From positions 209,304 through 273,303 of the forward strand of contig NW_008705587.1 in NCBI RefSeq assembly GCF_000186865.1: DNA of 64,000 nucleotides, given 5' to 3'. Source of the stretch: Aureococcus anophagefferens (lineage: Eukaryota; Sar; Pelagophyceae; Pelagomonadales; Pelagomonadaceae). The notes under the pieces were generated by a model. It saw nothing but the letters and a program-made list of their open reading frames with translations, did no database searches and had not been told where the DNA came from. How positions within the stretch are numbered: position 1 is the stretch's first letter; each line of letters starts with the position of its first letter. This document shows positions 594-56,013 of this stretch, piece by piece. The translations under genes were made by a program, and so were the position numbers.

Positions 594-2370
594 ATGCTGA
601 TGGCTCGGCTCGTTAGCCTGGCGCTGGTGCTGCCGTGGTGCCGAGCGAGCCTGCCGACGTACGACGCCTTCGCCATGGAGCCTCTGGGCGCCTTCGCGCC
701 GGGCTACGCGTCGCGGCGGTCGCCGGACGCTCCCCTGGGGGCGCCGCTCGGCGGCGCGTCGACGGTGCTGCCCGGCGCGCGGCTCGCGGCCTGGCACCGC
801 GTGCTCGCCCGGCTCGCGCGCCGCGAGCAGGCGGTCCTCACGGTGCTCGTGCTCGGCGGCTCCATGACGGCGGGCCGCATGGACGCGCGCGCGGACCGGC
901 AGCAGGCGTCGCTCTTCGCCGCGGGCGCGCGCGTCGCCTACGGGTCGAGCGCCTGCGCGAACGCGACGACGACGGAGTCCTACGCGACGTGCGACCACGA
1001 GGTCACGGGCGACTGCAAGCCCTGCGCCTTCCCCGCGCGCCTCGGCGCCTGGCTCGCGCGCGTCTACCCGGCGACGGACGTCCGCGTGCTCAACTACGCC
1101 GTCGGCGCGTCGACGAGCCGGTCCATCCTGGGCATGCTCGGCGGCGAGCTCGAGGCCCTCGAGGCGGGCCACGTCGACGTCGCCTTCGTGAACTACGTCG
1201 ACAACGACGTCGCGCGGGCCACGGACGCGGCCGCGACGGCCAAAATCGCCGCGGCGCACGAGGCGCTCCTGCGGCTCCTCCTCACGCGCAAGGTCGCCGT
1301 CGTCGACGTGGAGATGCAGGTGCCGGATAAGTCCGACGCCTGGCCCACGCACGCCGCCGTCTGCCGCCACCTCGGCGTGCCCATGGTCTCCTGGCGCCGC
1401 GGCGTCGCGGGCGACGAAAAGTCGTCGGTCGCGCGGCACCCGAACTGGGCCTTCCACCAGCTCATCGCCGACTGGCTGGCCTACGAGTGGGGCGTGCAGG
1501 GCGCCGCGGCGCTCCGAGGAAACGTCGACGCGTCGGACCCGCCGCTGCCGCCGCCGCTGCGGAGCCCGGACACGTCGGACGTCGTGTGGAAATCAACCAC
1601 TGGTTTGGGGGGTCCCCACCAAACTTTACAACTCTCTATCTCGGTCAAATCGAAGTCGATTCGGCTGATTTTTGGACGAATCGATGGCTCTCGTCGAGTT
1701 CTCGAAGCACAGCGAAAGAGTCTGGTCCAAACCGTTCGATTACGCGCACATTGAAGTCGGGTTGAAGATTTGATTTCCACACAGGTCAGACGTCGTCTGC
1801 GCGGCGCCGCTGACGGACCTCGACGCGCACGAGCTCGCGGCGAGCCCCGCCGCGGTGTCGTCCGACGGCGCCTGGCGCTTCGGCGAGGACGCGCCGGGCA
1901 AGAAGGGCTGGATCGTCGACGACGCGCATGGTGGTGTGGTGAACTTCACCGTTCACACGCCGCCCGACGGCCGGGACCCCGTCGTCGGCGTCGGCTTCCT
2001 CGCGTCCTGGGATCCGTCCATGGGCGCCGTGCGCGTCGTCGTGGACGGCGACGCCGAGAACGCGGCCGTCCTCAACGCGTCGCGGCCCGGCGGCACGGCG
2101 TCGCAGACCGAGTACGCGCGGCTCTGCGTCGAGCCGCCGCGCTATTCGCCCTGCTTCCCGGCCTGCGGCGCGCCGACGAAGCGGCCCCTGCGCTTCGCGG
2201 CCCACAAGCCCGCGTCCTGCGACCGCGACCAGCGCCAGTGCGAGAGCGCGTGGCGCCGCTACGACGCCGCGCAGCGCGCGTCCACGGCGCGGTCCCTGTC
2301 CTTCGAGCTCCTCCCGCGGCCCGGCGCGGCCTCGAACCGGTTCGTGTTGCGCTACGTCGTCACGTGTTAG
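594..2370 (+). CDS. Secreted SGNH/GDSL-type hydrolase with C-terminal domain, two exons (594..1573, 1785..2370)
   Basis: Spliced product is 521 aa. The ATG at 594 (or 600) starts a signal peptide (MARLVSLALVLPW). Block I of the SGNH fold is LVLGGSMTAG with the nucleophile Ser near residue 93; block II is NYAVGAS near residue 167; a block V-like HPNWAFHQLIADWL lies near residue 282 with the candidate catalytic His. Such enzymes remove or transfer acyl groups on polysaccharides or lipids. After the intron a second domain of about 195 aa follows, beta-rich in appearance with several Cys, of unknown role. Removing the introner 1574..1784 rebuilds the codon ACG and gives RSPDT-SDVVCAAP with no gain or loss. 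The stop codon TAG (2368-2370) interlocks with the stop of the convergent gene. Confidence 0.8.
1582..1784 (+). mobile_element. Introner element 1 (subfamily A), sense, forms intron 1574..1784
   Basis: A 203-bp insert flanked by the 8-bp direct repeat GTCGGACG (1574-1581) and GTCAGACG (1785-1792; one mismatch). Its ends are inverted repeats: GTGTGGAAATCAA at the left and its complement, finishing CACACAG, at the right. The core contains TTCGGCTGATTTTTGGACGA, shared in whole or near-whole with the five other copies in the window. The 5' splice site GT is the first two bases of the left target duplication and the 3' CAG is the end of the inverted repeat, so excision removes the element plus one duplication. 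Intron length 211 bp, phase 2. Confidence 0.9.
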
Positions 2371-3092
2371 ATGAGCGTGTCGCGATCGAGGTCGTGGGGG
2401 TTCCGGGTGTACCCGCCGGAGGATCCCCAGAAGCTCCGCAGCAAGCAGTCACACGCGAGGCTCAGCGCGCCCGCCGTCCTCGCTTTTGCCACGTCCCCCG
2501 ACGTCACCGTGGGCTCCGTCGTGCGAAAGAGCAGCTCGCAGGGCGCCTGCTCCCAGGGCCGCCGCTTCGCGGTCGCCGCCGTCGCGGGCTCGCCGTCGAC
2601 GGCGACGAGCGTGTGGCCGACCTTGACCCGGCCGAGGAGCGGCGACGCGGCCGCGATCCGGGCGATCTTCGGCGCGCCGCGCTCAAAGTCCGCGCGGAGC
2701 GGGCCCGGCGCGAGGACGACGACGTACTCGCGGTAGAGGACGTAGCCCGCGTCGTCGTAGACCTTGCGCGTCTCGCGGTCCTTGCGCTCGTCCGGCGCGA
2801 CCTTGGACGACGCGGCGCGCGACTGGCGCACGCCCGCGAGGCCCGCGGCCAAAACCCGCTGCCGCCGCGCGAGCGCCGCGCGCGTGTCGCGCAGGTCCGG
2901 CGAGGCGCAGACGCGCTCCATGCGCGAGTTCGTGCACAAATTCTGGAACGCCGGCATCGACGGCGCGTGGGCGAGGACGAGGCGCAGGACGTCGTCGGGC
3001 AGCCCCATGAGGCCCACCGGACGTTCGGGCGTGGGGTTGGGCTTGGTTCCCTCGAGGGAGATGTGCTCCGGGACGACTCCCTGCCTCGCCAT
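2367..3092 (-). CDS. F-box-like/PDZ-like protein, 241 aa
   Basis: ATG at 3092 begins a 241-residue protein. Residues 28-60 (LMGLPDDVLRLVLAHAPSMP and following) look like an F-box or F-box-like LPDDxL motif, which in other proteins binds Skp1. The second half contains RVKVGHTLVAVDGEPA near residue 160, a pattern typical of the ligand-loop region of PDZ domains (GDxIxxVNG). Neither assignment is secure. Its TAA stop (2369-2367) overlaps the TAG of the convergent hydrolase gene by sharing the bases TTAG. The next gene starts 135 bp upstream in the opposite direction. Confidence 0.6.
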   Translation of the reverse strand: MARQGVVPEHISLEGTKPNPTPERPVGLMGLPDDVLRLVLAHAPSMPAFQNLCTNSRMERVCASPDLRDTRAALARRQRVLAAGLAGVRQSRAASSKVAPDERKDRETRKVYDDAGYVLYREYVVVLAPGPLRADFERGAPKIARIAAASPLLGRVKVGHTLVAVDGEPATAATAKRRPWEQAPCELLFRTTEPTVTSGDVAKARTAGALSLACDCLLRSFWGSSGGYTRNPHDLDRDTLI

Positions 3093-3227
3093 AGTAAAAA
3101 TGCTCTAGGGGTGCGTTCTATAAGCTAGGTTTTTCGCCTGCATTCCCCACGGGTGTACGCACAAGCCAGGGAAAGCACAAACCTGTGTTCAACAAGTGCG
3201 ATTGTTGCACTCGGATCTCGTCGGAGC

Positions 3228-5795
3228 ATGGCTCGTTGCCGAGTCGCAGCGCTGCTGCTGCTCCGCGCCGCGGCCGCCTTCGTCGCGCCGCGCCCGCTGC
3301 CGCCGCTGCGCAGCCTGCGCCGCGCCGCGCCCGCCTTCGTCGCGCCGCGCCCGCCGCCGCCGCAGCGCAGCCTGCGCCGCGCCGCGGCGCCCGTCGACGC
3401 CGCGGAGGAGATCTGGTGCCCCAACGGAGAGTGCGAGGTACTCACCGATGCGGCGCCGGACCAGGAGGAGCTGTCGCTGAAGGAGCGGGTGCTCTCCTGG
3501 CTGGGCCGGCGGCGGAGCCGCAACGTCGAGCCCGGGAAGCTCGTGCTCGTGCGCCACGGCGAGTCGACGTGGAACGCGAACAAGACGTTCTCGGGCTGGG
3601 TCGACGTCGACCTCAACGGCGTCGGCGAGCGCGAGGTCGAGCACGCGGCGCGCCTCATGATGGAGCGGGGGCTCACCATCGACGTCGTCTACACGTCGCT
3701 CCTCAAGCGGGCCATCCGGTCCGCGTGGATCCTCCTCCGCGAGTCGAAGCAGTCGTTCCGCCCCGTCGTCAAGGACTGGCGGCTCAACGAGCGCCACTAC
3801 GGCGCCTTCCAGGGGCGGTCCAAGCCGGGCCTGGCGGCGCTGCTGGGCTACGAGCAGGTGCGCGACTACCGCGCGGGCTTCGTCGCGCGGCCGCCCGCGC
3901 TGCCGCGGCACCACGCGCTGTCGCCGTTCCGCGAGCGCAAGTACACGGGCGTCGCGGCCGACGACCTGCCGCTGACGGAGTCGCTGCGGGACTGCCTCGA
4001 GCGCGCGCTGCCCGTCTACGAGGACCGCATCAAGGCCGACGTGCTCGACGGCAAGGACGTCGTCGTCGTCGCGCACGGCAACGCGCTGCGGGGGTTAGTG
4101 AAGGCCATCGACGGCCTCAGCGACGACGTCATCGAGAACGTGGCCATCCCCAACGGCATCCCCCTGGTCTACGAGTTCGCGCGGAGCGCCGCGGGCGACC
4201 TCGTGCCCGTGCCCGGCGAGAACGCCGAGGGCCAGCTCAGCGGCGAGTTCCTCGAGGAGAAAGGAGCGCTCCGCGAGGCGTTGGAATTCGAACGCGCGCG
4301 GACGCGGCCCGAGTCGCTCGCGGACCCGTCCGAGGACATCTCGCGGCTCTGGGGCGTCGACAAGTCGACGGTGCTCTCGCCCCTGGAGCAGAGCCTCGCG
4401 AAGCTCCAGAAGGAGCGGCGGCTCATGGCGGCGGCGGCGGCCGAGTTCAACGTGCCCGTGGAATACCGCGTCGCGGACGACGTCGTCCGCAAGGTCACGC
4501 GCGGCGCGCTGCGCGAGGAGCTCGCCCGGGAGAAGGCGAGCAATGTTTTCAAGGGCACGCGCGGCGCGCTGCGCGAGGAGGTCGCCCGGGAGAAGGCGAG
4601 CAAGGTGTCCTTCGCGCCCGGTGCTAAAACGGCCGCGTCGTCCGCGGTCTACAAGGACGCGTTCGAGGCGGCCGCGGCCGCGCCGCGGCGGCGCCGGTCG
4701 GTTAGGCCGCCGGCGCCGGGCGAGGCGCGGCCGCCGCTCGTCGTCATCATCCGCCACGGCAAGACGACGCACAACAAGCTCGGCCTCTTCACGGGCTGGG
4801 AGGACGCGCAGCTCGCGCCCGAGGGCCGCGCCGAGGCCGCGGCCGCGGGCGCTTTGATGCGCGCGCACGGCGTCGAGGTCGACGTCGTCTACACGTCGTG
4901 GCTCACGCGGGCCATCGAGACGGCGTGGCTCGTGCTGAGCCCCTTGGACGCGCTCTGGGTGACGATCCACAAGAGCTGGCGCCTCAACGAGCGCATGTAC
5001 GGGCGGCTCACGGGGTTGAGCAAGCGCATGATCAAGCAGAAGCACGGCGACGACCAGTTCATGAAGTGGCGCCGGGGCTACCGCGAGCGGCCGCCGCCGG
5101 CGAGCCCCTTCAGCCCCTTCTACCCGGGCAACGACGAGCGCTACCAGAAGTACGTGTCCGACGTGCCGATCTCGCTCCGCCAGTCGCTCATCCGGTCCCT
5201 GGGCCACGGGCGCCTCGAGCTGCACCGCAAGTTCCCGCGGGCCGAGTCGCTCAAGGACTGCATGGACCGCACGATCCCCTACTACCAGAACACGATCTAC
5301 CCGCAGACCATCGCGAAGAACCGGACGGTGCTCATCGCGTCGTCCGAGAACGCGATCCGCGGCCTGCTCATGCACCTCTGCGACATCCCCATCGCCAACA
5401 TCTCCAACGTCGAGATCCCGACGGGCGTGCCCCTCATCTACGACATCGCCGGCCGCTGCGTCCACCTCTTCGACGACGGGCAGCTGCCGAAGCCCCGGGA
5501 CCGCTACGACTTCGGCGAGGCCGCGGACCTCCTGTTCCGCCCCTGCGACTACGACGACGACGACGGCTGCGACCTGCTGGACCCCCACCTCTACCTCGAC
5601 GACAAGTTCCACCGCGGCGACGACGGGGGGCTCGGCCCCGACAGCGAGGCCGCGGCGGAGCGCGAGGCCTGGGAGCGCGTCCTCGAGATCGGCGAGGACG
5701 ACGAGTTCACGACGGAGGAGCGCGACTTCTGGGTCAAGGAGATCCGCGAGGGCGCGACGGAGTTCGACGACGAGCCCGTCGAAGTCGAGATCTAA
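3228..5795 (+). CDS. Plastid-targeted tandem phosphoglycerate mutase (two PGAM domains, second degenerate)
   Basis: From ATG 3228, 855 aa. The N-terminus (MARCRVAALLLLRAAAAFVAPRP) is a signal peptide ending in the AxFxP-type cleavage motif typical of secondary-plastid preproteins; the AFVAPRP block is repeated once more. Domain 1 (residues about 105-330) is a 2,3-bisphosphoglycerate-dependent phosphoglycerate mutase with RHGEST, NERHYG and the second histidine in AHGNALRG, so it should interconvert 3- and 2-phosphoglycerate. Domain 2 (about 505-750) keeps RHGKTT and NERMYG but has SSENAIRG where the second catalytic HGN should be. A linker with a 60-bp tandem repeat joins them, and the C-terminus is strongly acidic. 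An upstream in-frame ATG at 3153 is not favoured because it would bury the signal peptide. Confidence 0.85.
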   Translation: MARCRVAALLLLRAAAAFVAPRPLPPLRSLRRAAPAFVAPRPPPPQRSLRRAAAPVDAAEEIWCPNGECEVLTDAAPDQEELSLKERVLSWLGRRRSRNVEPGKLVLVRHGESTWNANKTFSGWVDVDLNGVGEREVEHAARLMMERGLTIDVVYTSLLKRAIRSAWILLRESKQSFRPVVKDWRLNERHYGAFQGRSKPGLAALLGYEQVRDYRAGFVARPPALPRHHALSPFRERKYTGVAADDLPLTESLRDCLERALPVYEDRIKADVLDGKDVVVVAHGNALRGLVKAIDGLSDDVIENVAIPNGIPLVYEFARSAAGDLVPVPGENAEGQLSGEFLEEKGALREALEFERARTRPESLADPSEDISRLWGVDKSTVLSPLEQSLAKLQKERRLMAAAAAEFNVPVEYRVADDVVRKVTRGALREELAREKASNVFKGTRGALREEVAREKASKVSFAPGAKTAASSAVYKDAFEAAAAAPRRRRSVRPPAPGEARPPLVVIIRHGKTTHNKLGLFTGWEDAQLAPEGRAEAAAAGALMRAHGVEVDVVYTSWLTRAIETAWLVLSPLDALWVTIHKSWRLNERMYGRLTGLSKRMIKQKHGDDQFMKWRRGYRERPPPASPFSPFYPGNDERYQKYVSDVPISLRQSLIRSLGHGRLELHRKFPRAESLKDCMDRTIPYYQNTIYPQTIAKNRTVLIASSENAIRGLLMHLCDIPIANISNVEIPTGVPLIYDIAGRCVHLFDDGQLPKPRDRYDFGEAADLLFRPCDYDDDDGCDLLDPHLYLDDKFHRGDDGGLGPDSEAAAEREAWERVLEIGEDDEFTTEERDFWVKEIREGATEFDDEPVEVEI
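4495..4604 (+). repeat. 60-bp in-frame tandem duplication between the two PGAM domains
   Basis: Two near-identical copies, at about 4495-4544 and 4555-4604, encode TRGALREELAREKAS and TRGALREEVAREKAS. The period is 60 bp (20 codons), so the frame is preserved and a charged helix is doubled in the linker. Confidence 0.9.
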
Positions 5796-5915
5796 GGTCG
5801 TGTGTTGTGTTGCAGTTTGGGTGTTCTCGGACTGCATCGTAAGTTGACGGCACGTTTGAACACTTTGCGAAACGCTCCGGAGCGCGAACCTTCTCGCACG
5901 TCGTCGGCAGCCACC

Positions 5916-6689: not shown

Positions 6690-6789
6690 GGCGGAGACGC
6701 GCCGAGTCCCCCGCGCGCCCCGACCTCCCCGCGCCGCGACCGCCGACTCATGGACAGATTTGACGTGGCGGGGCGCGCGTATGGCGCGC

Positions 6790-8379: not shown

Positions 8380-8555
8380 CGTGGCGGACGGAGGCTTCGC
8401 GACGCGTCGGAGGCGAAGCGGGCCGCGACGGCGGAGAACGCCTAGGGCGGCGGCCGGGAGCGGGCGAGGCGCGGCGGCGGCGGTGGCGTCGCGTTCCGCA
8501 CTCCGTGGCTCCGCGGTCGTCTCGAGCCGCTCGAACCCCGAGGGGGTTGACCGCC

Positions 8556-9022
8556 GGTATGCCTGGTAGTATGCGCCCGCTATGCGGGCTTTATGCGGGC
8601 TTTATGCGGGTGTTATGCGGGTGGTATGCGGGTGGTATGCGGGTGGTATGCGGGTGGTATGCTGGTGGTATGCGGGTGGTATGCGGGTGGTATGCGTCTG
8701 CTATGCCGGTGGTATGCGTCTGCTATGCCGGTGGTATGCGGCTGCTATGCTGGTGGTATGCGCCTGCTATGCTGGTGGTATGCTGGTGGGCTGCTATGCT
8801 GGTCTTATGCGCCTGCTATGCTGGTGGTATGCGGCTGCTATGCTGGTCTTATGCGCCTGCTATGCTGGTGGTATGCGCCTGCTATGCGCCTGCTATGCGC
8901 CTGCTATGCGCCTGCTATGCGCCCGCTATGCGCCCGCTATGCGCCCGCTATGCGTCTGCTATGCGGCTGCTATGCGGCTGCTATGCTGGTGTATGCCGTG
9001 GCTGGTGTATGCCTGGTGGTCG
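8556..9022. repeat. 11-bp minisatellite, about 42 units
   Basis: Units have the form TATGC followed by six variable bases: TATGCGGGTGG, TATGCTGGTGG, TATGCGTCTGC, TATGCCGGTGG, TATGCGCCTGC, TATGCGCCCGC and others. Variants are grouped in blocks, with alternating pairs in the middle and nearly pure TATGCGCCTGC / TATGCGCCCGC runs near 8870-8950. Because 11 is not a multiple of 3, all plus frames stay open and give Met/Cys/Tyr-rich translations; these are not genes. It sits between the start of the sorting-receptor gene (8379) and the end of the scramblase gene (9118). The rest of 8380-9117 holds nothing else I recognise. Confidence 0.93.
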
Positions 9023-9117
9023 GCCCCCTCTGCTCGAACCTGGCTCGAACGCCGCGCCGGGCGCCGCCCGCGCGCCGCGGCGCGCAGAACGCCTCGCAGA
9101 CGCGTCGTACAGACACG

Positions 9118-10233: not shown

Positions 10234-10252
10234 CGTCAGCTCGGCGCGCTGC

Positions 10253-13499: not shown

Positions 13500-13520
13500 T
13501 AAAACCGAGCCCGTCCATCC

Positions 13521-25862: not shown

Positions 25863-27724
25863 CTAGAGGGGCCAGTCTTCGTCGGCGTCGTCGGCGGCCT
25901 GGAAGAAGCGGACGTCCTCCTCCCAGACGCAGTCGAGCTCCTCGGCGTCGGCCGTCCCGGGCCGCTTCGCGTGGAACTCGAAGGAGCCGACGAGGACGGG
26001 CGCGCCGTTCGCGTCGGCGACGCCGCTGTCGCTGAAGAAGAGGGAGCCGGACGCCTTCGTGAGGCCGTTCTTGAGGTCCGAGTTGAGCTTGAACTTGAAC
26101 TTGCCGTCCGCGGAGACCGCGCCGCCCTTGGCCTTGGGCGAGAGCCGCGGCGTGAAGAGCTCGCGGCCGCCGTCCGCGTCCTCGTCCATGATGCCCTTCA
26201 TGCAGATCATGCCGCCCACGGCCGGATCCGCGACGAGGCTGAGGGCGCCCGTGGCCCGGCCGTAGGACGCGGGGCCCGCGACGCCGTCCTCGAGGCCCGC
26301 GGACGCGTCGCCGTGGACGCGGCGGACCTGGGCAGGACAAGAGAGATTCAACGTCGCTTCAACGTGAGTGTTCCGCGCGCGCGCGTTCCGGAACAAGCAT
26401 CCACGCTTCGAGACCGTTCCAAGAGATGATCGCTCGTCCAAAAATCAGCCAAAACGAGTGGAAAACGGCCGAGATATGAGGCTTTGAAGTTTGGAATTTC
26501 GCTCTCTTGTCCTGCCCCGCGGCGGACGTAGTAGCGGCCCGCGAGCGCGCGGAAGCTCGCGTGGGCGCCCGCCGGCGGCGGCGGCGGCGGCGCGTCGTCG
26601 CCGTCGGGCGGCGGCGGCGGCGCGTGCTTCGGCCGCTTCGCGGCGGAGCCCTCGCCGCGGGGCTCGGGCGCGCGCGCGGTGTCGAGGAGCTCCGCGTGGC
26701 GGTCGGGGTCCTCCAAGGTGATGTAGCCCTTGCCGATGTCGTTGCTGAGGTCCGCCTTCTTCGCGCCGAGGTCCAGCAGCTCCTTGAGCGTCGCGCCGGC
26801 CTTGTACTTGTCGTAGAGCTCCGCGGATTTCGTGCCCTCGCGCTTCGGGTTCTCCTGGCGGACCTGGCACGCGTCCTCGAGGAAGGGCTTGAGCGCGGAC
26901 GTCGGGATCTTGAGCTCGCCGCCCTTGGCCGCGGAGCCGCCCTCCTTGGGCTTGCGCTTCTTGGTCGTGGTCGGCGCGGGCGCGGGCGTCGACGCGGGCG
27001 CGGGCGCCGCGGGCGCCGCGGGCGCGGGGCTCGCCGCGCCGTTCGACGCCGCGGCCGCGGGCGGCGGCGTGCCGAGGATCATCGCCTTCTTCGCGGCGAA
27101 CTCCGCGGCCGTGAGCACGCCCTCGTCGTAGAGCATCTTCAGGTCCCGCAGGGCCTGGACGTCGAGCGCGTTCTCCATGGTCTCCCAGCCCTTCTTCGCG
27201 TCGGCGGCCGCCGCGGCCTTGGCCTTCTCCTTCTTCGTCGGCTTCTTCTCCTTGATCTTCTTCGCCTCCCAGGGCGCGTCGTCGCCGTACTTCTTCTTCG
27301 CGTCGGCGTCGAGCGCGCTCCAGCCGGCGGCCAGCGCCTTCATGACCATCTGGCTCCGCGCGCCCGCGGCGGCGTCGGCGTTCTCCTCGTCGACGCGCGC
27401 CTTGCACGACGCGCGGAACTGCGCGCTGTAGAAGAGGTAGCCGCTCTGCTTCTTGAGCACGTGGCCCTCGGGGCAGGCCATGTCCGCCGGGGGGAGCTCT
27501 TTCGCCGGTGGCGCCTCCGACGGCGGGTCGCTCTTGGCCGCGCCGTCGTCGCTCGGCGGCGCGCTCGCGGCCGCGGGCTCCGGCTCGTCGTCGGCCTCCG
27601 CCTCGTCGTCGACGGCCTCGTCCTCCGCGACGTCGTCCTCTTCCTCGAGCACGACGTCGTTCTCGTCGACTTCCATGTCGGCCGCGCTCGACTCGACGTC
27701 GTCTTGTTGGTCGACCTCGTCCAT
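25863..27724 (-). CDS. HMG-box/SHOCT nuclear protein, two exons (27724..26528, 26327..25863)
   Basis: ATG at 27724 gives MDEVDQQDD and an acidic N-terminus; the frame is open further upstream without coding character. Spliced length 553 aa. Residues about 91-145 are HMG-box-like (KQSGYLFYSAQFRASCKARV, MVMKALAAGWSALDADAKKK). Residues 188-215 match a SHOCT-type short helix (LRDLKMLYDEGVLTAAEFAA). An Ala/Pro linker, then KSAELYDKYKAGATLKELLD and a SAP/SWIB-like helical stretch, then poly-Pro. After the introner a beta-rich domain follows (GDASAGLEDGVAGPASYG, GKFKFKLNSDLKNG). The junction YY-VRRVHG is exactly in phase 0. Likely a chromatin protein; specific role unknown. Confidence 0.78.
26328..26519 (-). 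mobile_element. Introner element 2 (subfamily B), sense, forms intron 26328..26527
   Basis: 192-bp insert with perfect 8-bp target duplications reading GTCCGCCG on the gene strand (26527-26520 and 26327-26320). The ends are inverted repeats GGGCAGGACAAGAGAG and its complement ending CTGCCCAG. The core has TTGGCTGATTTTTGGACGAG. The intron is 200 bp, phase 0, GT from the duplication and CAG from the inverted repeat. It is nearly the same sequence as element 3 at 34.6 kb, differing at scattered bases. Confidence 0.92.
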
Positions 27725-34083: not shown

Positions 34084-35327
34084 ATGGCCTCCTTCAAGGA
34101 GTTCCAGGCCATGCGGCGCGGCGACGCCAACGCCGCCGCGGCGTCGCGCGTGCTCGCCGCCACGCACCTCGACGTGCCGTCCTACGCCCAGGCCTACGAG
34201 CCGCCGTCGCCGGCGCTGCGCGAGGCCCAGGGCCGGCTCCGCGACCTCGAGCGCCGCCGCGGCCGCTGCCTGACGTCGTGCGCGTGCCGCCTCGCGCCGG
34301 ACCCGCCGCCGGCCGCGGCGCCGCCGCTCGTGAGCGTCGTCTGCGCGACGATGGGCTCGCGCGCCGCGTTCCACGGCGCGCTCCTGGAATGCTTCCGACG
34401 GCAGACCTGGCCGGCGAAGGAGCTCATCGTCTACGACACGGGCGGCGCGCCGTCGCCGACGCTCCGCGACGCCGGCGACGCGCGCTACGTCCACGCGCCG
34501 ACGCACGTGACTTTGGGCGCGAAGCGGCGCCTCCTCCTGGGCCTCGCGCGGGGGACGGTGGTCGCCCACTTCGACGACGACAACGTCTACGGCAGGGCAG
34601 CAAAAGAGAGCGAAATTCCCAACTTCAAAGGCTCCTATCTCGGCCGGTTTCCACTCGTTTCGGCTGATTTTTGGACGAGCGATCATCTCTCGGAACGGTC
34701 TCGAAGCGTGGATGCTTTTTCTTGAACGTTCGCGCGCGGAACACTCACGTTGAAGCGACGTTGAATCACCCTTTTGCTGCCCAGGTCTACGGGCCGGACT
34801 ACCTCGCGACCATGGTCCCGCACTGCGCCGCGGCGGAGCTCGGCAACAAAAGCCGGCGTCAAGAAACGTCGCCCGAAAAACGCGCCGTTCCGCAGGCGGC
34901 GGCGCGGACCTCGTGAGCCTCTCGGGCTGGACGAACTACCGCGTCTGCGAGGGACCGGCGTCCTGGGGGGGCTCCCGCGATCGTCGAGCGTTTTTTTTCG
35001 GCAGGCTCCGGCACGCTCGAGCGCGTCGACTTCAAAGCCGCGACGGGCCGCGCGGAGACCTTCGTCCACGGCGCGAACGTCGACGTGCCCTTCCCGCCGC
35101 TCGACCGCGGCGAGGACGGCTGCGCGGCCCAGCTCGTCTCCCACGACGTCGACGACGACGCGGGCCTCTTCCTCCACGTGGAGCACGGCGCGAACACGGC
35201 GCCCGCGCGCGGCGACCGGCGCGCGGACCTCGCGGACCTCGCGGCGGGGACGGCCGCGCTCCTCGCGGACGTCGCGCCGAGCCTCCGGCGCGCGCGCCAG
35301 GCCGCGCGGCGGCGTAGCGCGCGGTAG
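34084..35327 (+). CDS. Family-2-type glycosyltransferase, four exons (34084..34584, 34785..34842, 34896..34946, 35005..35327)
   Basis: Modelled product 310 aa. Exon 1 holds the GT-A core: PLVSVVCATMGSRAAFHGAL, CFRRQTWPAKELIVYDTGG, VTLGAKRRLLLGLARG and the DxD-bearing VVAHFDDDNVYG. The introner at 34585-34784 cuts right inside that motif; excision restores DDDN-VYGPDYLATMV. Two further small introns are inferred: 34843-34895 (53 bp) and 34947-35004 (58 bp), both GC..CAG, because they rejoin AAAEL-GGGADLVSLSGW and TNYRVC-SGTLERVDF and the total becomes a multiple of three. Exon 4 has HVEHGANTAPARGDRR. No signal peptide is visible. Small-intron boundaries are less certain than the introner's. 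Confidence 0.72.
34593..34784 (+). mobile_element. Introner element 3 (subfamily B), sense, forms intron 34585..34784
   Basis: 192-bp insert between perfect duplications GTCTACGG (34585-34592 and 34785-34792). Inverted ends: GGGCAGCAAAAG and CTTTTGCTGCCCAG. The core contains TTCGGCTGATTTTTGGACGA. The intron is 200 bp, exactly like element 2, to which it is close to identical internally. Phase 0; GT from the duplication, CAG from the inverted repeat. Confidence 0.92.
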
Positions 35328-40900: not shown

Positions 40901-43900
40901 CCTGCCCTAAACCCATCTCGACCTGGCCCCGGAGCCGCAGGCAGACGAAGCGCGCCTTCTTCGGGTCGAGGCGCTCCAGGAGCACCAAAGCCGCGTCGTC
41001 CGTGCCCGCCTTGCGGTCGATGGACTGGGCCGCGTCGAGGCCCCCGGCGAGCTCGCGGACGAGGTCGCCCGCGCGGTCCAGCGCCGTCAGCGCCTTCGTG
41101 TGGTCGCCCGCGTCGAAGTGCGCGTTGCCGATGCGGACCTGGGCCCGCGCGAGGCCCGCGACGTCGACCTGGCCGTGGGCCCGGAGCCGCGCGCGGTCGA
41201 AGAGCGCGCGGATGGCCCGCTCGTAGCAGGCCAGCGCCTCGTCCGTGCGGCCCATGCGCCGGAAGCCGTCGCCCTCGAGCACGAAGGCGACCTCCGGCGG
41301 CGCCTCGTCCTCCTCCAAATCGTCCTCCTTGACGGGGTCGAGCCCGGTCTCCTCCGGCGGGATGACGACGACGGTCTCGCCGCCGACGGGCGCGTGGAGC
41401 TCGGACGTCTCGTAGGCGCGCCGGTTGCCCTCCTGCCACGTCTTGAGCTGCTTCCGCGAGTAGGCGAGCTGGTCCGCGGCGCCCCGGAGCTCGCTGAGCT
41501 CGCGGAGCGCCGCGCGCGCGTCCGCGATGTTCTCCTCGCGTCGCTCCGCCGACAGCTTCAGCAGGCGGCCGCCCTTGCCCACGATGCGCCCGGCGACCTT
41601 GGCCGCGTCGACCTCGAAGACGAGGAAGACGCCGTAGCGCAGGCGGTGCACGGCGGCGATGAGGTAGCGCCGCGCGCACGCGACGAAGACGCGGAGCGCG
41701 ACGCCGCGCGCGTGGCGCCGGTCCGCGCGGAAGTCCTGCCAGAGCTCGACGTACTTCTGCATGAGCGCGATGCGCCGCTCCGCGCGCTCCTTGGGCGTGA
41801 GCCGCGGCTTCCTGGACTGGAGCCGCGTCACGCGCGTCTGCCGCCGCACGTCCGCGCGGACGTTGACGAACTGGGCCTGGCGGTCGTGGAGCTCCGTCTT
41901 CTTCTGGTCCGCCGTCTTCTGGGCGCGGATGCGGTTCTTGTCCAGGATCTGCACCTTGCGCTTGCTGTCGGCGATCTCGCCGAGGCACTTCTCCATCTCG
42001 ATCTGGAGGTCGCGCTGCAGCTGCGGCTTCGTGAAGCGCTGCACGCTGCCGTGGATCACGGAGGAATTGATGTAGGGCGCCTTGACGCCGGCGACGCGGT
42101 CGATCTCCGCGCGGACTTCCAAGACGCGCTCCTGCTGGTCCGCCATGGCCCGCGTCAGCGCGGCCCGGTCCGCGAAGCACTTGAGCTGGTCCGCCTCGGC
42201 CTTCTCGATCTGCTTTTCCAGCTGCTTGAGGCGGTGCTCGAACTGGGTGCGCTTGCGCTTGTACTCGGGCACGGCCTTCTCCATCTGCGCCTCCTCGGAG
42301 AGCTCCTCGGGCGGCTCGTCGACCATGGCGAACATTCGAGCGGACCCGACGATGGACTTGGACGCGGCCCAGCGCCGCTTGGCGAGCTCCTCCGAGGCCT
42401 CGTCGCGCACGGCGATGTCCTTCTCCATCTGGTAGGCCTCCGCGAGGTCGGCCTTGAGCCGCGCGACGTAGTCGCGCTTGTACTCGCGCTGCAAGAAGCC
42501 CTGGTAGAAGTCCGTGTCCACGAAGTCGCCCTCGACGGCCTCGGCGCGCTTGAGCTCCTTGATGAGGAGCTCGCGCATGGACGGCGGCAGCGTCGTCACC
42601 TTGTCGATCTTCTCCGCGTCGCCCTCCTGGCCGGCCTTGTTCTTCGCGCGGACTTCGATGTTGACGTAGTCCGTCTCGCCCCGGAGGTCCCGCAGCTTGA
42701 ACTCGCACTGGGGGCCGCCGACCCGCAGATTGACGACGGTCTTGACCTCGTGCTTCTCGTCCGTCGTGTTGCCGCCCTTGGTCTTCGACTGCGACGCCAT
42801 CGCGCGGCCCGCGCCCTTCGTGTCGTCCTTCTTGAACTCCGCGACCCACTCGTTGTGCGTCAGGTGGCGCACCTCGACGTAGTGGATCAGGTAGTCGACG
42901 ATCTCGGCGCCGCCGTCGCGGAGCGGCGGCGACCAGCGGAGCTGGAACGAGTTCGCCGTCGGCGCGCCCGCGTCGAGGTAGAGCGGCTTGCCCGGCGCCA
43001 CGGCCTCCTTCGTCGAGTAGGCCATGAGGGGCTCGCAGCGCTCGCTCCAGCCGATGGAATTCTTGCAGCGCACGGCGAACTCCGAGTACTCCGTCGACGC
43101 GCGGAGCTCCGTGAGCGTGTGGCCGTACTCGGCGACCTGCGTGCAAAATCTTCAACCCGACTTTCAATGTGAGTGTATTCGACGGTTTCGACGCAAGCTT
43201 TTTCGGCCCTGCTTCGGGAACTCGAGGAGACCAATCGATTCGTCCAAGAATCACCCGAATCGACTTCGATTTGGCCGAGCGAGAGAGGTTTGAAGTTCGG
43301 CCCCGACGTCCCAGCTCGCTGGTTGTTTCCGGCACGGTCGGCGACGGGCTCGACGTACGCGAAGCAGGACGTGAGGATGGGCGGCAGCTGGCTCACGGTC
43401 TTCGTGACCTTCTTGCCGATCTGGGTCACCTTGGTGATGCTGAAGACGACCTCGTACTCGTAGACCGTCGCGCCGCCGTCGAGGATCGGCGGCGCCCACT
43501 TGAGCTCGATCTGCGTCGGCGTGATCTTGCCGATGCGCAGGTCGCGCGGCGGCTGGGGCTTCATGGCCACGGACTTTTTGGCCTGCTTGCGGTCGCTCTG
43601 GTACTTGCGGCGGACCTTGCAGCGCTCGACGTGGCCCCGGAGCTTCTCCTTCGTCTTGAGCGAGCCGCAGACGACGCACGCGATGCGCTCGACCTTGGGG
43701 TCGTAGACGGCCTCGTCCTCCGACGAGCCCTCGGCCTCCATGGGCGCGCCCGCGCACACCAGCAGGTGGCCCGCGAGCTGCGCGCGGAGCACGCGGCTCC
43801 GGCACTTGTCGCACGTCGCGAAGAGGTCCTTCAACCCCAGCATCTTCGCGTCGTCGCGCGCGTCCTTGGTCATCTTGTCGACCTCCGCGTCGGCGTGGGA

Positions 43901-44637: not shown

Positions 44638-47212
44638 ATGCGGTGCTTCCGCCACTTCAACCTGCACGAGGCCGAGGGCACGGCGTCGGCGGTCTACTCG
44701 CTGGACCTGTCGCCGGGCGGCGACACGCTCGCGACGTGCGGCGGCGACTCGCTCGTGCGGCTCTGGTCCTGCGGCGTCGTCTTCGCCGGGGGCGGCAACG
44801 ACGCGCCCGAGGCCGTGCCCGAGGCGGCGCTGGCCGCGACGCTGGCCAAGCACACGGCGGTCGTGACGTCGGTGCGGTGGTCGGGCGCCGGGCATCGGCT
44901 CGCGTCGGGCAGCGACGACACGTTCGTCTTCGTCTGGGAGCCGCGCGCGGGCGGCGCCTGGGCGCGCGCCGCGACGCTGCGGGGCCACGGCGCCGACGTG
45001 CTGGACGTCGCGTGGTCCGCGGACGACGCGATGATCGCGTCGTGCTCCATCGACAACAGCGTCTGCGTCTGGGACGCGCGGAACCTGGCGCTGCTCATGG
45101 CGCCCCTGCGCACGCTCCGGGGCCACGCGAACTGGGTCAAGGGCGTCGCCTGGGACCCGACGGGCCGCTTCCTCGCGTCCGCGTCGGAGGACCGGCGCGT
45201 GCTCGTGTGGCGCGCGTCGGGCGACTGGCGCGTCGAGGCGACCATCGAGAAGCCCTTCGCGGGCGTCACGTCCCAGACCTTCTTCCAGCGGTTGTCCTGG
45301 GCGCCCGACGGCGCGTCGCTCGGCGTGCCCAACGCGGCCAAGTCCATGCAGGCGTGCGCCGCGGTCGTCGCGAGGGGTTCGTGGGACGGCGTCGCGGATC
45401 TCGTCGGCCACAAGCACCCGGTCACGGTCGTCAAGTTCTGCCCCGCGCTCTTCGTCGACGACGACACGGGCGGCCGGGCGCCGCCGCGGTCCGTCGTCGC
45501 CATCGGCGGCCAGGACGCGACGATTTCCGTCTGGACGTCGTCCAAGGCCCGGCCGGTCGTCGTCTTCCGCGACTGCTTCTCGGGCGCGGTGTCCGACCTC
45601 GCCTGGAGCCGCGACGGGTCCTTGCTCGTGGCCGCGTCCCACGACGGGTCCACCTGCGCCTTCCGCTTCGACGTCGGCGCGGATCTGGGCGAGGCGCTGT
45701 CCGCGGACGCGGCCGCGGCGTACCTCGCCGACACGTTCCGCGCCGCGGGCGGCGAGGAGATCGCGCTGCCGAACCCGACGCTGCCGTCGCCGGCGGCCGC
45801 GGCGAAGACCGTCGCCCTGGCTCGGCCCGCGGCGGCCGCCGCGCCGGCGGTGACGATCCTCCAGGCGCGGCCGAAGCACGGACGGAACGGCGCGGCCGCC
45901 GGCCCGGCGAAGAAGAAGAAGCGCATCGCGCCCGTGGCCCTCGGCGGCGCCGCGCCGGCGGCGGCCCTGGCGCCGCGCGCCGTCGCCGCCGCGCCACCCG
46001 CGGCGCCCGCGGCGCCCGCGCCCGCGGTCGCGCCGCGCGCGCCGCCGCCCGACGACCTCGTCGCCGCGCCCGCGCCGCGCGGCGGCGTCGTGTCGCGCGA
46101 CGTCGGCGGCGGGTTGCGGGTGGCCGCGGCGCCGGAGAAGGCCGGCGGGACGAGCCGCTGCCGCGTCGTCGCGAGCCGCGGCGACGCCGCGGCCTGGGAG
46201 GCGGTGGTGGCCGGCGCGGCCGTCGCCGTCGCGGGCGGCGACGGCGCGGTCTTCGTCGCCACGGACCGCGGCGCGCTCCACTGCCTCTGCGCGGCGAGCG
46301 GCGCGCTGTTGGCGCCGGTCCTGCTCCTGCCGGCGCCGGCGGCGCACGTCGCCTGCGGCGGCGGCCACGTCGCGGTCGTCTGCGGCGACGCGGCGGTCCG
46401 CGCGTGGAGGCGGACGGGCGGGCGGCTCGCGTCGGCCGCCGTCGCGTCGGCCGCGGCGCCGCTCCGCGCGTCGACGGGCGGCAAGGTGCTGGGCTGCGCC
46501 ATCGGCGCCGCGGGCGTGCCGACGCTCAAGCTGCGCAACGCGGGCGCGGCCTTTGCGGCCGAGGGGCCCGTCGCGGCGGTGGCCTGGGACGCGCGCGCGG
46601 CGGCGTGGGTCAAGCTCGCGGACGCGACGTCGACGGCGCTGCCCGACGACCGCGCCGCGACGTCGACGACGCCCGGGGATGCGCTCCTCGCCGCGGCGGC
46701 CGACGGCGCGGCGGCCGCGACGTCCGCGGCCGCGTTGTTAGCCGCGGCGCCCGACGGCGACGGCGCCAATCCGGGTTCAACATTCATGTATCCGAACGGT
46801 TTCGACCTACTTTTTTCACTGTTCAAAAAGGACTCGACGAGAGCAATCGATCCGTCCAAAAATCGGCCGAATCGACTTCGATGTGGCCGAGCTCGAGAAT
46901 TCGGAAGTTTGGTCGGGACGTCCCAAACCAGCGGTTGTCTCCGGCACAGGCGCCAAGGCCGCGCTCGAGGAAAGATTGGCGTGCGCGACGCGCTTCGGCG
47001 CCGCCGCCGCGCGGGCGCGCTGGCTCGACGCCTACGCCGCCTGCCTCGCGTCGTCCGACGACGCGAACCGCCTCCGCCGCCTCGCGGCGTCGCTCGCGGA
47101 CGAGCCGGCGCTGTTGCGGGACCACGTCTACCCCGCGCTCCGCGCGAACCCGAAGCACCACGCGCTCCTCTCGGAGCTCGAAGAGGCGGACAAGGCCATG
47201 AGCGACGTCTAA
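44638..47212 (+). CDS. HIRA: Histone chaperone HIRA, two exons (44638..46762, 46950..47212)
   Basis: ATG 44638, 795 aa. Residues 1-370 are seven WD40 blades in the HIRA/Hir1 order: VYSLDLSPGGDTLATCGGDS, VRWSGAGHRLASGSDDTFVF, HGADVLDVAWSADDAMIAS, HANWVKGVAWDPTGRFLASA, FFQRLSWAPDGASLGVPNA and AWSRDGSLLVAASHDGS. A basic/Ala linker (KKKKRIAP) and a second beta-rich domain (about 490-700) correspond to the C-terminal Hira domain. After the introner the helical end LEERLACATRFGAAAARARW..LSELEEADKAM follows. HIRA deposits H3.3 independently of replication. The precise junction uses a GC donor; a GT at 46775 also keeps the frame (+4 residues). The TAA stop interlocks with that of the convergent PIG-W gene. 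Confidence 0.9.
46770..46949 (-). mobile_element. Introner element 5 (subfamily A), inserted antisense to HIRA, forms intron 46763..46949
   Basis: Flanks are GCGCCAAT (46763-46770) and GCGCCAAG (46950-46957), 7 of 8 identical. The core reads in the opposite direction to the gene (TCGTCC/GTCCAAAAATCGGCCGAA on the plus strand). The right end is a proper inverted-repeat end (GTCTCCGGCACAG); the left end is missing about 15-20 bp, so the intron is only 187 bp. The 3' CAG therefore comes from what is the opposite end of the element compared with the other copies. The donor is GC (46763) or GT (46775). Confidence 0.85.
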
Positions 47213-48432: not shown

Positions 48433-48544
48433 GCCGCCTCTCGGCGGCGGCGATGCTGGGTCGACCTTGCAAGATCCTTGCAGCGAAGCAGCCCGGCAGC
48501 ATGGCTTGAGCAGACGCGGAGAGCCGCCAAAGGTGGGGCGCGAG

Positions 48545-50484: not shown

Positions 50485-50602
50485 TAGGCTCAAGCCGAGG
50501 CGAGGAAATAAACGGTAGCTTAGCTATAGCTGCAACTTGCGCAGCTTGCATCCACCTTGCAGCCCATCCGTTGCAAAATTCGAACTCCATCGTTGGGCAG
50601 CT

Positions 50603-51841: not shown

Positions 51842-51934
51842 AGGCTGGTGTGCTAAGTGTGGCATCAAGTTGTAGTTCAACTTGTCGCTCGCTGAATTGC
51901 GAGCGCTTGCCTTGTGTAGCACTACCTCTCTTGC

Positions 51935-53035
51935 ATGCATCTGCTGCGCGCCGCGACCTTGGCCGCGATCGTCTGCAGCATGTCGCGCGCCAGCAAGATC
52001 GCCGGCCTGAAGACGGCGCTCACGACCGTGAGCCCCCAGAGCATCCGCGCCGCCGCAGAACGCATCGCGCCCTACGCCGTGCGCACGCCCGTGCTGCGCA
52101 GCGACCGCATCGACGCGCTCGCGGGCTGCGAGGTCCACTTCAAGTGCGAGCACCTCCAGGTCACGGGCAGCTTCAAGGCGCGCGGCGCGCTCAACGCGGT
52201 CCTGTCGCTGAGCGACGCCGAGGCCGCCGTCGGCGTCGTCGCGCATTCGACGGGCAACCACGGCGCGGCCGTGGCCCGCGCGGCGCAGGCGCGCGGGGCG
52301 CCCTGCGCCATCGTCGTGCCCACGGTGACGCCCGCGGCGAAGCTCGCGAACATCGCGCGCTACGGGCCGGCCGTCGTCCAGTGCGAGCCGTCGCCGGCTG
52401 CGCGGCGGGCGGCGTCCGAGGCCGAGGCCGCGCGGCTCGGCGGCGCGACGATCGTCCACCCCTTCGACGACGGGCGCGTGATCTGCGGCCAGGGCACCAT
52501 CGGTCTGGAGCTGCTGGAGGACGTGGCAGGGCTCGACGCGATTTTGGTGCCCGTGAGCGGCGGCGGCATGCTCGGGGGCGTCGCCGCGGCGTGCGCGGGC
52601 ACGTCGACGCGCGTCATCGCCGTGGAGCCCGCGGGCAAGGCGCTCGGCGCGGCGCTCGCCGCGGGCGAGCGCGTCATCTTCGACGAGGCGGAGCTGGAAG
52701 CGAGGCCGACGCTCGCGACGGTCGCGGACGCGATGCCGACGCGTCTGCTCGGGCCGAACCTCGCCTGGCCCCTCTCCTACGGCCTCCTCGACGCGCGGGA
52801 CGTGTTGGCCGTCGACGACGCCGCCATCGAGGCCGCGCTCCGGCTCACGGCGTCGGAGCTGAAGCAGGCCGTGGAGCCCGCGGGCGCCGTCGCGCTCGCG
52901 GGCCTGCTCTCCCCCGCGTTCGCCGCGCTCCGCGACGACCCGGAGCGGCCCCTGCGCCGCGTCGCCGCCGTCGTCTGCGGCGGCAACGTCGACGCCGGGA
53001 CGCTCGCGGCGATCCTCGCCGGCGGGGGGGACTAA
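51935..53035 (+). CDS. PLP-dependent serine racemase / threonine ammonia-lyase-like enzyme
   Basis: ATG 51935, 366 aa (ATG 51980 is an alternative). Fold-type II PLP enzyme: Lys81 in GSFKARGA forms the aldimine, HSTGNHGAAVA binds the substrate carboxylate, PVSGGGMLGG is the phosphate-binding glycine loop, and VVCGGNVDAG closes the site. The compact length without a C-terminal ACT domain fits serine racemase or catabolic threonine dehydratase rather than biosynthetic IlvA. The first 15 residues (MHLLRAATLAAIVCS) are hydrophobic and could be a weak targeting signal. It converges on the MYND gene with 34 bp between stops. Confidence 0.88.
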   Translation: MHLLRAATLAAIVCSMSRASKIAGLKTALTTVSPQSIRAAAERIAPYAVRTPVLRSDRIDALAGCEVHFKCEHLQVTGSFKARGALNAVLSLSDAEAAVGVVAHSTGNHGAAVARAAQARGAPCAIVVPTVTPAAKLANIARYGPAVVQCEPSPAARRAASEAEAARLGGATIVHPFDDGRVICGQGTIGLELLEDVAGLDAILVPVSGGGMLGGVAAACAGTSTRVIAVEPAGKALGAALAAGERVIFDEAELEARPTLATVADAMPTRLLGPNLAWPLSYGLLDARDVLAVDDAAIEAALRLTASELKQAVEPAGAVALAGLLSPAFAALRDDPERPLRRVAAVVCGGNVDAGTLAAILAGGGD

Positions 53036-53069
53036 GGCCGCCGCGCGACAGAATCCCGGCGGCGGGTGG

Positions 53070-56013
53070 TTACGACGCCTTCTCGGACTTGTCCGCGGCG
53101 ACGCACTTCGCCCGGTGCGTCGCCCAGTGCTCGGTCTGGCAGTCCCGCGAGCAGTAGTGGACGGCCTTGCACCGCGCGCACTTGCGCGCCTTCGTGAGGA
53201 CGACGGCGCAGCGCGCGCAGACGCCGACGCACCTCGCGTCGACGTCGATGGCGACTTCGAGCGGCGCGAAGGCGACCTCGAGCGCCAGGTAGGCGTCGAG
53301 CACGGGCACGACGAGCGCGCGGCGCGCGTCGTCGTCGAGCGTCGCGCAGTAGTCGCGCGCGCAGCGCAGCGACAGGCTCCGGTGCTGCTCGGACCACGTG
53401 TTGCGCGCGTCGTAGGACGGGTGCGCCTTCAATAACTCCGCGTGCGCGGCCTTGTGGTCCCTGCCGTTGGCGACGCGGTCCTTGAGCACGTAGGCGATGA
53501 TGGCGCGGTACCGCTTGTTCAGCGCGGCGGCGACGAGGGTCCGCTTCGCCGCGGGCAGGTTCCGGAAGGGCTCGACGTCGTCCATCGCGGGCGAGGGGAC
53601 GGGCTGCGGGCCCTCGCCGCCGGGCTCGAGGCCCCGGAGCAGGCCGCTCGGGTCGTCGCGCATCAACAGGACGAAGCGCCGCAGGACCTCGACGCTCCCG
53701 ACCTCGTCCTTGTCCAGCGACTCGCGGACGACGACGCGCGCCTCGAAGACGTCCTTGGAATGGTGCGCCGCGACGGCGCCCGACGACGGCAGCAGCCCCA
53801 GCGCGGCCCAGTCGTCGTAGTGCGCCTGCATGGCCTGCAGCACGACCCCCGGCCGCCGGTACCGCTCCCAGTGGCGCGTCTTGGCGCGCTCCTTCGCGTC
53901 GTCGAAGACGTGGCCGACGGTCGAGACCGTGGCGCGGTAGAAGACGCGCGGGTCGCCCGGCCGGAGGTGCGCGCCGTCGCCGAAGCCCTCGATGGCCACG
54001 GGGTAGAAGCTCCGCGAGGGCGACTGCCAGCGCAGCGCCGAGGCGTGGACGAGGTCCGTGACGTCGAAGGCGGCCTTGAGCACGTCCTCCGACGGCAGCC
54101 TGTGCCGAAACCAAATCTTCAACCCGACTTCAATGTGAGCGTATTCGAATGTTTTGACACAAGCTCTTCGGCTGGGCTTCGAGAACTCGACGAGAGCGAT
54201 CGATCCGTCCAAAAATCAGCCGAATCGACTTTGATTTGACCGAGCTAGAGAATTCTCAAGTTTGGTCAGGACCACCCAAACCAGTGGTTGGTTTCGGCAC
54301 AGACGGCAGCGTCGAGCTCCGCTCGGCGACGACGCGCACGGTCGGCGGCCGCCAGCCGTCCTCGTCCTCGTCGGCGACGAGCGCCGCCTCCTTGGCGCGG
54401 ATGAAGCTCAGGATGCGCGCCGCGTCCCAGCCGGGCTTCCAGGGCACGGCGCAGCGGTAGAGCGGCTCGCGCGTCCGCTGCGCGTCGCGGCGGTGCGCGC
54501 GCGCGGCCTCGTCCTCGGCGACGTAGTCCGCCTCGACGCGCGCGGGGCCGTAGGAGCTGTAGTAGGTCTTGGGCTCGTCGGGCAGCATGGGCGGGCTGCG
54601 CGTCCGCGAGTAGTAGTACATGAACCCCTTGAGGAACACGTCGCGCAGCGACCGCGTCGGTGCGGGCGCGCCGGGCCGCCGCCGCGCGACGCTGCCCGGT
54701 TTCTCCTCCATGCGGTTCAGCTCCTCGTCCTTCGTGCGGCGCAGGGAGAAGAGCCGCGACGCGATCAGCAGCCGCACGAGGCCCGACTGGGGCGTCGCCG
54801 CGCCCGCGGCGGCGCCGCGCCGCGGGTCCGCGTCGCGCACCGCGAGCGGGAGGTCGAAGACCCGCGGGTCGACGGCCGCGGGGCGGTAGAGCGACGGCGG
54901 CACGTAGACCGCGTAGCCCCGGAGCGCGTACTTGACGAGCCGCGCCTCGTAGGTGAGGGACCGCCGCGCCGCGTCGACGCGGCAGAGCTTCTCGCAGAGC
55001 GCGCGGACGCCGCGCGGCGCGCCCCAGACGCGTTCGCCGTCGTAGGCGAAGCAGCAGGCGTCGACGTCGAAGGAGTCGAGCACGGCCGCCGCGGACGCGT
55101 AGAGCCGGAGCACGACCTGGACGTTGCGCCGGGGGAAGCCCGCGCTGAACGTGATCGCGGACGCGGAGCGGACGCAGGCGACGCGCGCGCAGGCGTTGCG
55201 CACGACGGCGGCGTGGACGGCGACGAGCGCGTCCATCGCCGCGCGCTCGTCGAGCCCCACGAGGAAGAGGTCGACGTCGCTTGACGTGCAGAAACGCGAC
55301 GCGGCGTCGCGCCGCTGCAGCGTCCGCGCGGCGGCCTCGACGCGGCTCCGGCCCGCCATGGCCGCGTGGCTCCGCGCCTCGAACCACTCCACGAGCCCCG
55401 GCCCGGCCTCGCGGCCCGGCGGCCGCGCCTCGACGCACGCGAGGACGCCGCCGCCCGCGGCGACGAGGCCCAACGCCTTCCAATCGACGCCGCGGAGCAG
55501 CCCGGACCCGAAGACGTCGAAGGCGTCGCGGAACTGGGCCAGGTCCGCGCAGGCCGCGTCGGCGCCGTCGGGCCAGAAGCGCGGCGGCTGGTGGAAGAGC
55601 ACCTGCGCCGCCGCGACGTCCGCGCTCCACGGCCCCAGCCGCCAGGCGGCGCCCGCGGCGTCGCCCGCGAAGACGTCCAAGAGCTGGCTGCCTTGCTTCG
55701 TGATGGCCTCGGCGCGCAGGGCGACGTCGAGGGCGTCGCCGTCGTCGAGCGCCCGCGCGAGGGGCGAGTCCGGGTACGCGGCGCGGAGCCGCAGGAGCGC
55801 GGCGCCGGGCAGCTGCGGCAGCACGCGCTTGAGCGCGGGCGCGGGCCACGACGCGACGGTCTCGCCCCAGTCGCCGACGTCGTCGGCCATGCCCGCCAGG
55901 CAGTCGCCGAGGACGACGGCGCAGCGCTGCGTGAGCGACGTCGCGAGCGGCGTCGGCGCGCGCTCGCCCTTCTTCCGGCGCGTCGACGAGAAGAGGCCCT
56001 GGAACGACGCCAT
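53070..56013 (-). CDS. Nucleotidyltransferase-like + MYND zinc-finger protein, two exons (56013..54311, 54099..53070)
   Basis: ATG 56013; 910 aa with the precise junction AERSST-LPSEDVLK. Exon 1 contains SDVDLFLVGLDERAAMDALV (about 246; GS/DxD-like pair), VQVVLRLYASAAAVLDSFDV and DACCFAYDGERVWGAPRGVR, SLTYEARLVKYALRGYAVYV, an order found in a protist/metazoan family with ankyrin or MYND partners whose core looks like a nucleotidyltransferase. Exon 2 ends in a MYND finger (about 859-898): CARCAVVLTKARKCARCKAV and HYCSRDCQTEHWATHRAKC. MYND fingers bind proline-rich peptides. The donor is GC at the duplication start, or GT six bases on (two extra residues). Substrate unknown. Confidence 0.75.
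54100..54302 (-). mobile_element. Introner element 6 (subfamily A), sense, forms intron 54100..54310
   Basis: The best-preserved copy: a 15-bp perfect terminal inverted repeat, CTGTGCCGAAACCAA at 54100 and its complement ending at 54302, flanked by the perfect 8-bp duplication ACGGCAGC (54092-54099 and 54303-54310). Length 203 bp. On the gene strand the duplication is GCTGCCGT, so the donor is GC at its first bases or GT at its last two; both keep the frame. Confidence 0.93.

Follow-up and report, generated by a model that had tools for sequence, protein, structure and literature searches.

How could a transposable element settle in six protein-coding genes and leave all their products unchanged? 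This question is raised by a 64,000-nucleotide stretch of the pelagophyte Aureococcus anophagefferens (C27:209304-273303 of the assembly, hereafter the window), in which six genes are each interrupted by a copy of the same kind of short repeat. We consider, with a probability of roughly 94%, that these repeats are introners, i.e. non-autonomous terminal-inverted-repeat DNA transposons of 192–203 bp that have turned into spliceosomal introns, their splicing being predicted here from the DNA. In the mechanism that we propose, a transposase encoded elsewhere would join the element into a staggered cut, thereby generating an 8-bp target duplication; the element would contribute the 3' splice site through its CAG end, while the 5' splice site would come from the upstream duplication, provided that the coding strand of the target starts with GT or GC. 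Splicing would then take out exactly one duplication plus the element, so that the coding sequence would be unchanged.

The presence in the window of six related elements with an intron-like placement, as claimed by the original prediction, is confirmed: all six lie where they had been placed, the introns measuring 211, 200, 200, 209, 187 and 211 bp, none of which is a multiple of 3. They belong to two related families, A and B, which have a common interior and both of which are flanked by 8-bp duplications, and they are arranged as follows.

Intron 1: 1574–1784, plus strand; duplication GTCGGACG (1574–1581) and family A element (1582–1784); second duplication copy GTCAGACG at 1785–1792 (7/8 match); phase 2, in a plus-strand gene that is weakly GDSL-hydrolase-like (under the Pfam cut-off).
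Intron 2: 26328–26527, minus strand; family B element (26328–26519) and donor-side duplication GTCCGCCG (minus strand, 26520–26527); second copy at 26320–26327 (8/8 match); phase 0, in a minus-strand gene with a SHOCT domain.
Intron 3: 34585–34784, plus strand; duplication GTCTACGG (34585–34592) and family B element (34593–34784); second copy at 34785–34792 (8/8 match); in a plus-strand gene for a family 2 glycosyltransferase (PF00535).
Intron 4: 43137–43345, minus strand; diverged family A element (43137–43337) and donor-side duplication GTCGCCGA (minus strand, 43338–43345); second copy at 43129–43136 (8/8 match); in a minus-strand gene with fibronectin III domains (PF00041).
Intron 5: 46763–46949, plus strand; duplication GCGCCAAT (46763–46770, GC donor) and reversed family A element (46771–46949); second copy GCGCCAAG at 46950–46957 (7/8 match); phase 1, in a plus-strand gene for a HIRA-like WD40 protein.
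Intron 6: 54100–54310, minus strand; family A element (54100–54302) and donor-side duplication GCTGCCGT (minus strand, 54303–54310, GC donor); second copy at 54092–54099 (8/8 match); phase 2, in a minus-strand gene with a MYND finger.

When the window was searched with two profiles built from pooled copies, exactly these six elements reached E <= 1 (with best values of 1e-71 to 2e-41 for the individual elements), and neither profile matched the window read backwards at that threshold; copies named as window copies were excluded from the profile pool, which did include two entries corresponding to window elements 1 and 3 (L009 and L041). The core said to be shared by the six is indeed shared, as an exact 20-mer in two elements and with 1, 1, 2 and 2 mismatches in the remaining four. 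The predicted 8-bp flanking repeats are likewise present, perfect around elements 2, 3, 4 and 6 and with seven identical positions out of eight around elements 1 and 5, the chance of a match of at least 7/8 at one fixed pair of positions being 0.0013. By contrast, the claim that the elements end in CTG..CAG holds for one side: read in the direction of the gene, the acceptor-side CAG is present in all six, but the literal pair CTG..CAG occurs in element 6 only. The donor-side end is TCG in element 1, CGG in element 2, CAG in element 3 and CCG in element 4, and about 20 bp are absent at this end of element 5. The upstream duplication starts with GT in introns 1–4 and with GC in introns 5 and 6, and five of the elements are oriented like the gene, element 5 being reversed.

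The original prediction hinged on the existence of dispersed copies, and these are abundant: the exact 20-mer core occurs 1,822 times in the genome (918 forward and 904 reverse occurrences in an assembly of 49.05 Mb and 86 contigs), and the backwards pattern never occurs. Because the exact core is found in just two of the six elements of the window, the true number of elements in the genome is probably several thousand. For each query, the 40 highest-ranking of the scored matches have an identity of 94–100% and are scattered over many contigs. Among them, at least six copies of the intron 6 element, itself included, are identical over 203 bp on contigs C27, C25, C6 and C4, which points to recent movement. 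For a sample based on position, we took 88 of the first 89 exact-core copies listed, all on contig C1 (C1:2490870 was not included), and considered as bounded those with a duplication of at least 7/8 and inverted repeats of at least 9/12; 74 of the 88 passed. An earlier set (113 cores, giving 99 bounded and 93 unique copies) contains the best-match sets and is thus biased towards relatives of the window copies; in this set, the duplications start with GY or end with RC in 93/93 cases.

If the upstream duplication and the element's terminal CAG act as donor and acceptor, respectively, then both should lie on the coding strand of the gene. The coding strand was called by a codon-usage model, independently of the duplication and of the element ends, and the call was confident for 62 of the 74 bounded copies. 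The rule (donor = first two bases of the upstream duplication; acceptor = the element's terminal CAG) is obeyed by all 62: on the coding strand, the duplication starts with GY in each of them, against a background of 0.197–0.201 in the flanks, and the element ends in CAG in each of them. Moreover, the upstream and downstream frames, which were called separately, join in 62/62 cases upon removal of the duplication and the element, whereas leaving the element in shifts the frame in 60 and introduces a stop in 2. Of the coding copies that can be used in one direction (58 in total), 24 are in phase 0, 14 in phase 1 and 20 in phase 2. A longer target duplication that would include the terminal CAG was considered and rejected, there being no consistent CAG ahead of the upstream duplication.

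Within the window, the claimed restoration of the frame stands in part. In each of the six genes, open frames are indeed joined once one duplication plus the element has been removed, but each junction is also crossed by a second open frame, so that open frames alone prove little in this GC-rich DNA. Pfam matches running across introns 3 and 4 provide better support: the PF00535 match (residues 99–181) spans the intron 3 junction, which falls after residue 167, and the best fn3 match (PF00041, residues 271–375) spans the intron 4 junction, after residue 339. In the case of gene 3, the joined frame closes 43 residues past the junction, so that a further intron is likely and the gene model is incomplete. 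Two HIRA-like relatives align through the intron 5 junction with short gaps. Three homologues of the gene 6 product (P0032 from Pelagophyceae sp. CCMP2097, and P0030 and P0031, which are unnamed) run on across the junction, two of them having a single additional residue next to it, proteins being unable to reveal the presence of an intron there; an environmental protein that is 99% identical (11 differences) has exactly the spliced length of 910 aa. Junctions 1 and 2 would be supported by their open frames together with the general rule. Regarding conservation, NOP14 and the gene 6 protein have 98–99% matches among ENA-only proteins, while their nearest named matches, both in Pelagophyceae sp. 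CCMP2097, are 45% identical over 38% of the query and 49% over 68%, respectively, in line with a pelagophyte host; for the HIRA-like protein, no match exceeds 49%. These results apply to the 8000 candidates sharing most words, which were the ones scored; among the hits, most of which are unnamed, none is labelled Aureococcus. The window also contains, at 8493–9046, tandem repeats of 11 bp (TATGCGGGTGG-like) that are unrelated to the introners; they gave 28 matches of 197 nt, which overlap and mostly follow each other at 11-bp intervals.

Several points weigh against the introner interpretation or narrow its basis. Twelve of the 74 bounded copies are not confidently coding, 14 of the 88 sampled copies fall below the boundary thresholds, and the training data of the codon model were the spliced reading frames of the six genes of the window. 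Since an exact core was required of every sampled copy, older copies are under-represented. One clean copy, L105 (G000:C1:858789-859409), has a perfect 8/8 duplication, CGCGCACC, that begins with CG and offers no donor under the rule; it is the only clean sampled copy that lacks a GT or GC donor for its CAG end, and it is not confidently coding and possibly lies outside coding sequence. Genome searches found no transposase gene with ends matching those of the introners. Finally, splicing is deduced from DNA rather than from transcripts, which speaks for an alternative in which the elements are either assembly errors or miniature transposons that lie in pseudogenes and are not spliced. This alternative is very improbable, given that the frames are intact on both sides and that GY and CAG lie on the coding strand in every coding-confident copy, a link that is not to be expected in pseudogenes. 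It is just as hard to credit that the elements spread through RNA, by reverse splicing of intron RNA into further transcripts, a route that has been proposed for introner-like elements of fungi: the uniformly splice-permitting sense of the coding-confident copies is what such a process predicts, but reverse splicing yields neither 8-bp duplications nor terminal inverted repeats, nor both orientations of the interior.

An alternative of another kind concerns the origin of the GY: the transposase might prefer targets that begin with GY, with no loss of insertions that cannot be spliced. If the preference were symmetric, the far end of the duplication should be RC. This is the case to some extent in family B (27/75 against a background of 0.217, p = 0.005), as a palindromic preference predicts, but not in family A (19/77 against 0.217, p = 0.49), whereas equal treatment of both ends is expected of a symmetric transposase; in addition, the side on which GY is found is the one that agrees with the coding strand and with the usable acceptor. 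We therefore regard target preference as an unlikely explanation. Since family A displays no mirrored preference, the simpler view is that genic insertions without GY on the coding strand were apparently lost through selection; most GY are best read as the mark of insertions that survived because they could be spliced, and family B may in addition have a weak target bias.

The two families differ in their ends. Family A elements are mostly 203 bp long, with ends like CTGTGTGG..CCACACAG or CTGTGCCG..CGGCACAG, and family B elements mostly 192 bp long, with ends like CAGGGCAG..CTGCCCAG. Our pool of 158 copies, split into families by length, comprises 135 copies usable in one direction (60 A and 75 B), 17 family A copies usable both ways and six without any option: L105; L019 and L029, which have TAG at the end; and L131, L133 and L142, which look misbounded. 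Note that L019 and L029 have this TAG in place of CAG on the acceptor side and GT donors, an arrangement that still fits an AG acceptor. The 75 B copies include two short A-like ones (L123 and L158), which were kept apart in the coding-strand test and are absent from the 73-copy tree and the mutation analysis below. The interior of the single-direction copies is forward in 28 and reverse in 32 for family A, and forward in 55 and reverse in 20 for family B, in a set biased towards forward copies. Of the 60 family A copies, 50 have CTG on the donor side; among the 75 B copies, the donor-side end is CAG in 60, CGG in 8, CCG in 6 (including the two short A-like copies), AAG in 1 and CTG in none. 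When the strand is called by codon usage, donor-side CTG is found in 0/38 family B and 16/22 family A copies. Relative to the interior, family B copies are mostly CAG..CAG when forward and CTG..CTG when reversed; in other words, along the transcript they read CVG..CAG irrespective of the orientation of the interior. Family A, with its mostly CTG..CAG ends, would thus be usable in either orientation, and family B would have a directional pair of ends and two main lineages, one per orientation.

What keeps T out of the donor-side end of family B? In predicted RNA folds, the acceptor A of family B is unpaired (mean probability of pairing 0.00) and would be paired if the donor-side base were T (0.96), as it is in family A copies with T (0.95). 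The ends of family B might thus be tuned to orientation, CVG..CAG keeping the base opposite the acceptor A unpairable while the interior flips relative to the ends; we put this forward tentatively, the odds being somewhat against it. Pairing avoidance is not proven to be the cause of these ends: in family A, T combined with a predicted paired acceptor is found in 15 of 21 single-direction copies, and changes from A to T are rare anyway. The other explanation, to which we give an even chance, is plain inheritance of the non-T base in two subfamilies, without relevance to splicing. It agrees with a tree of 73 B copies that groups them by orientation, with a first, mainly reversed group (12 reversed, 1 forward) and a second, mainly forward one (54 forward, 6 reversed), and with at least 7 changes against 16.2 on average after shuffling, no branch having the strongest support. 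Furthermore, the 12 changes away from A at the donor-side base never go to T, but A to T makes up just 7 of 55 interior changes from A, so that this absence is not unusual. Conversely, copies placed in the group of the other orientation, such as L110 and L147, have changed both ends together, and the base is off consensus in 12/73 B and 10/60 A copies, compared with interior averages of 2.2% and 2.9%, which are low because only columns with at least 85% agreement were used. Apart from this base, the left and right inverted repeats of family B tend to match each other: in the C1 sample (L001–L008 and L091–L170), positions 9 and 11 both agree between left and right in 35/44 copies, with four haplotypes, which suggests that one end was copied from the other. 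Altogether, two readings are left for the ends of family B, selection for an accessible acceptor or inheritance in two lineages whose interior was occasionally inverted, and the mutation spectrum is not decisive between them. One literature search, in which no introner paper was among the matches listed, found no published description of introner ends that follow orientation.

Which transposase might mobilise these elements? Neither the hAT dimerisation domain nor the KDZ domain has a match in the genome, the control genomes being silent too; the MULE transposase domain has none either, with 3 of 14 control genomes positive, and an intron-split gene could be missed in such a search. P elements produce 8-bp target duplications, like those seen here, and the genome does contain P-type transposase genes, namely one gene (L172, on G000:C25) and two relatives. 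The first (L172:3459-4676) contains seven in-frame TAG and neither TAA nor TGA in the same stretch; in our reading, these TAG stand at glutamine-like positions. An old introner relic (approximately 4671–4804, E = 7e-25) lies just behind this gene. The relatives (G000:C2:3449019-3449876 and G000:C11:1393826-1394683, the latter being L173) have equal scores and an open frame of 563 aa each and lie 3–4 kb from contig ends; L173 has Pfam scores just under the cut-offs. No introner-like ends were found in 5.1 kb of L172 or 5.0 kb of L173, and no link between the P-type loci and the introners is established. A scan for 8-bp duplications with inverted repeats returned three GC-rich, non-introner-like pairs in L172 at a loose threshold and no pair in the 5.0 kb of L173. 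A P-type mobiliser is thus a lead only. As for a viral vector, which was also considered and rejected, an 18-base form of the core matches two IMG/VR contigs, matches that we ascribe to chance since the surrounding sequence is unrelated, and the two terminal patterns have no match in IMG/VR, a collection from which records very near this genome may be missing. Finally, the RAG-like transposon of Aureococcus does not fit as mobiliser, its duplications being 5 bp long according to an excerpt of its description (PMC9435367).

Huff, Zilberman and Roy reportedly described in 2016 the introner elements of A. anophagefferens and Micromonas pusilla as non-autonomous DNA transposons. The present copies have the features of such elements: near-identical sequences occupy many unrelated gene positions, with a target duplication and terminal inverted repeats, and at the sequence level one splice site lies in the element and the other is co-opted, with no net change to the mRNA. 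Excerpts of three papers mention between them, for the introners of Aureococcus and Micromonas, target duplications, inverted repeats, co-opted splice sites and both orientations (PMC9860276, PMC10228655, PMC7789003), the last two features appearing together in one of them (PMC10228655). In addition to these features, the elements studied here share with them their non-autonomous nature and a pelagophyte host. The likeness is one of description, and the orientation-following ends of family B are not among the features described in these excerpts. In the part of Gozashti et al. (2022) considered here (PMC9860276), the Symbiodinium example (2B) has 4-bp duplications and the Aureococcus sp. example has an 8-bp duplication, like the present set; however, in the latter example both splice sites lie in the element and 12 bp are added to the transcript, whereas the present rule adds nothing. 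The likeness to the known introner DNA transposons of pelagophytes and Micromonas that had been claimed for the window is therefore supported, with a splice-site rule that extends from six genes to all the coding-confident copies. The elements, their duplications, the positions of the splice sites, the restoration of the frame and the rule in the sampled copies are observed directly; splicing itself, the action of a transposase and selection are what we infer from them.

In conclusion, it is well supported that the copies in the window and in the rest of the genome make up a new set of intron makers of a known type, one that is both large and very regular. Introners are documented as a means by which introns are gained en masse, and this genome offers a large set in which the splice-site rule can be examined one copy at a time, without recourse to RNA, and in which target preference can be separated from the loss of unspliceable insertions. 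The ends of family B raise a testable idea on the adaptation of transposon ends to splicing: if it is true, selection for an accessible splice acceptor would shape transposon termini, and the bidirectional insertion of family A would have been traded for cleaner splicing in family B.

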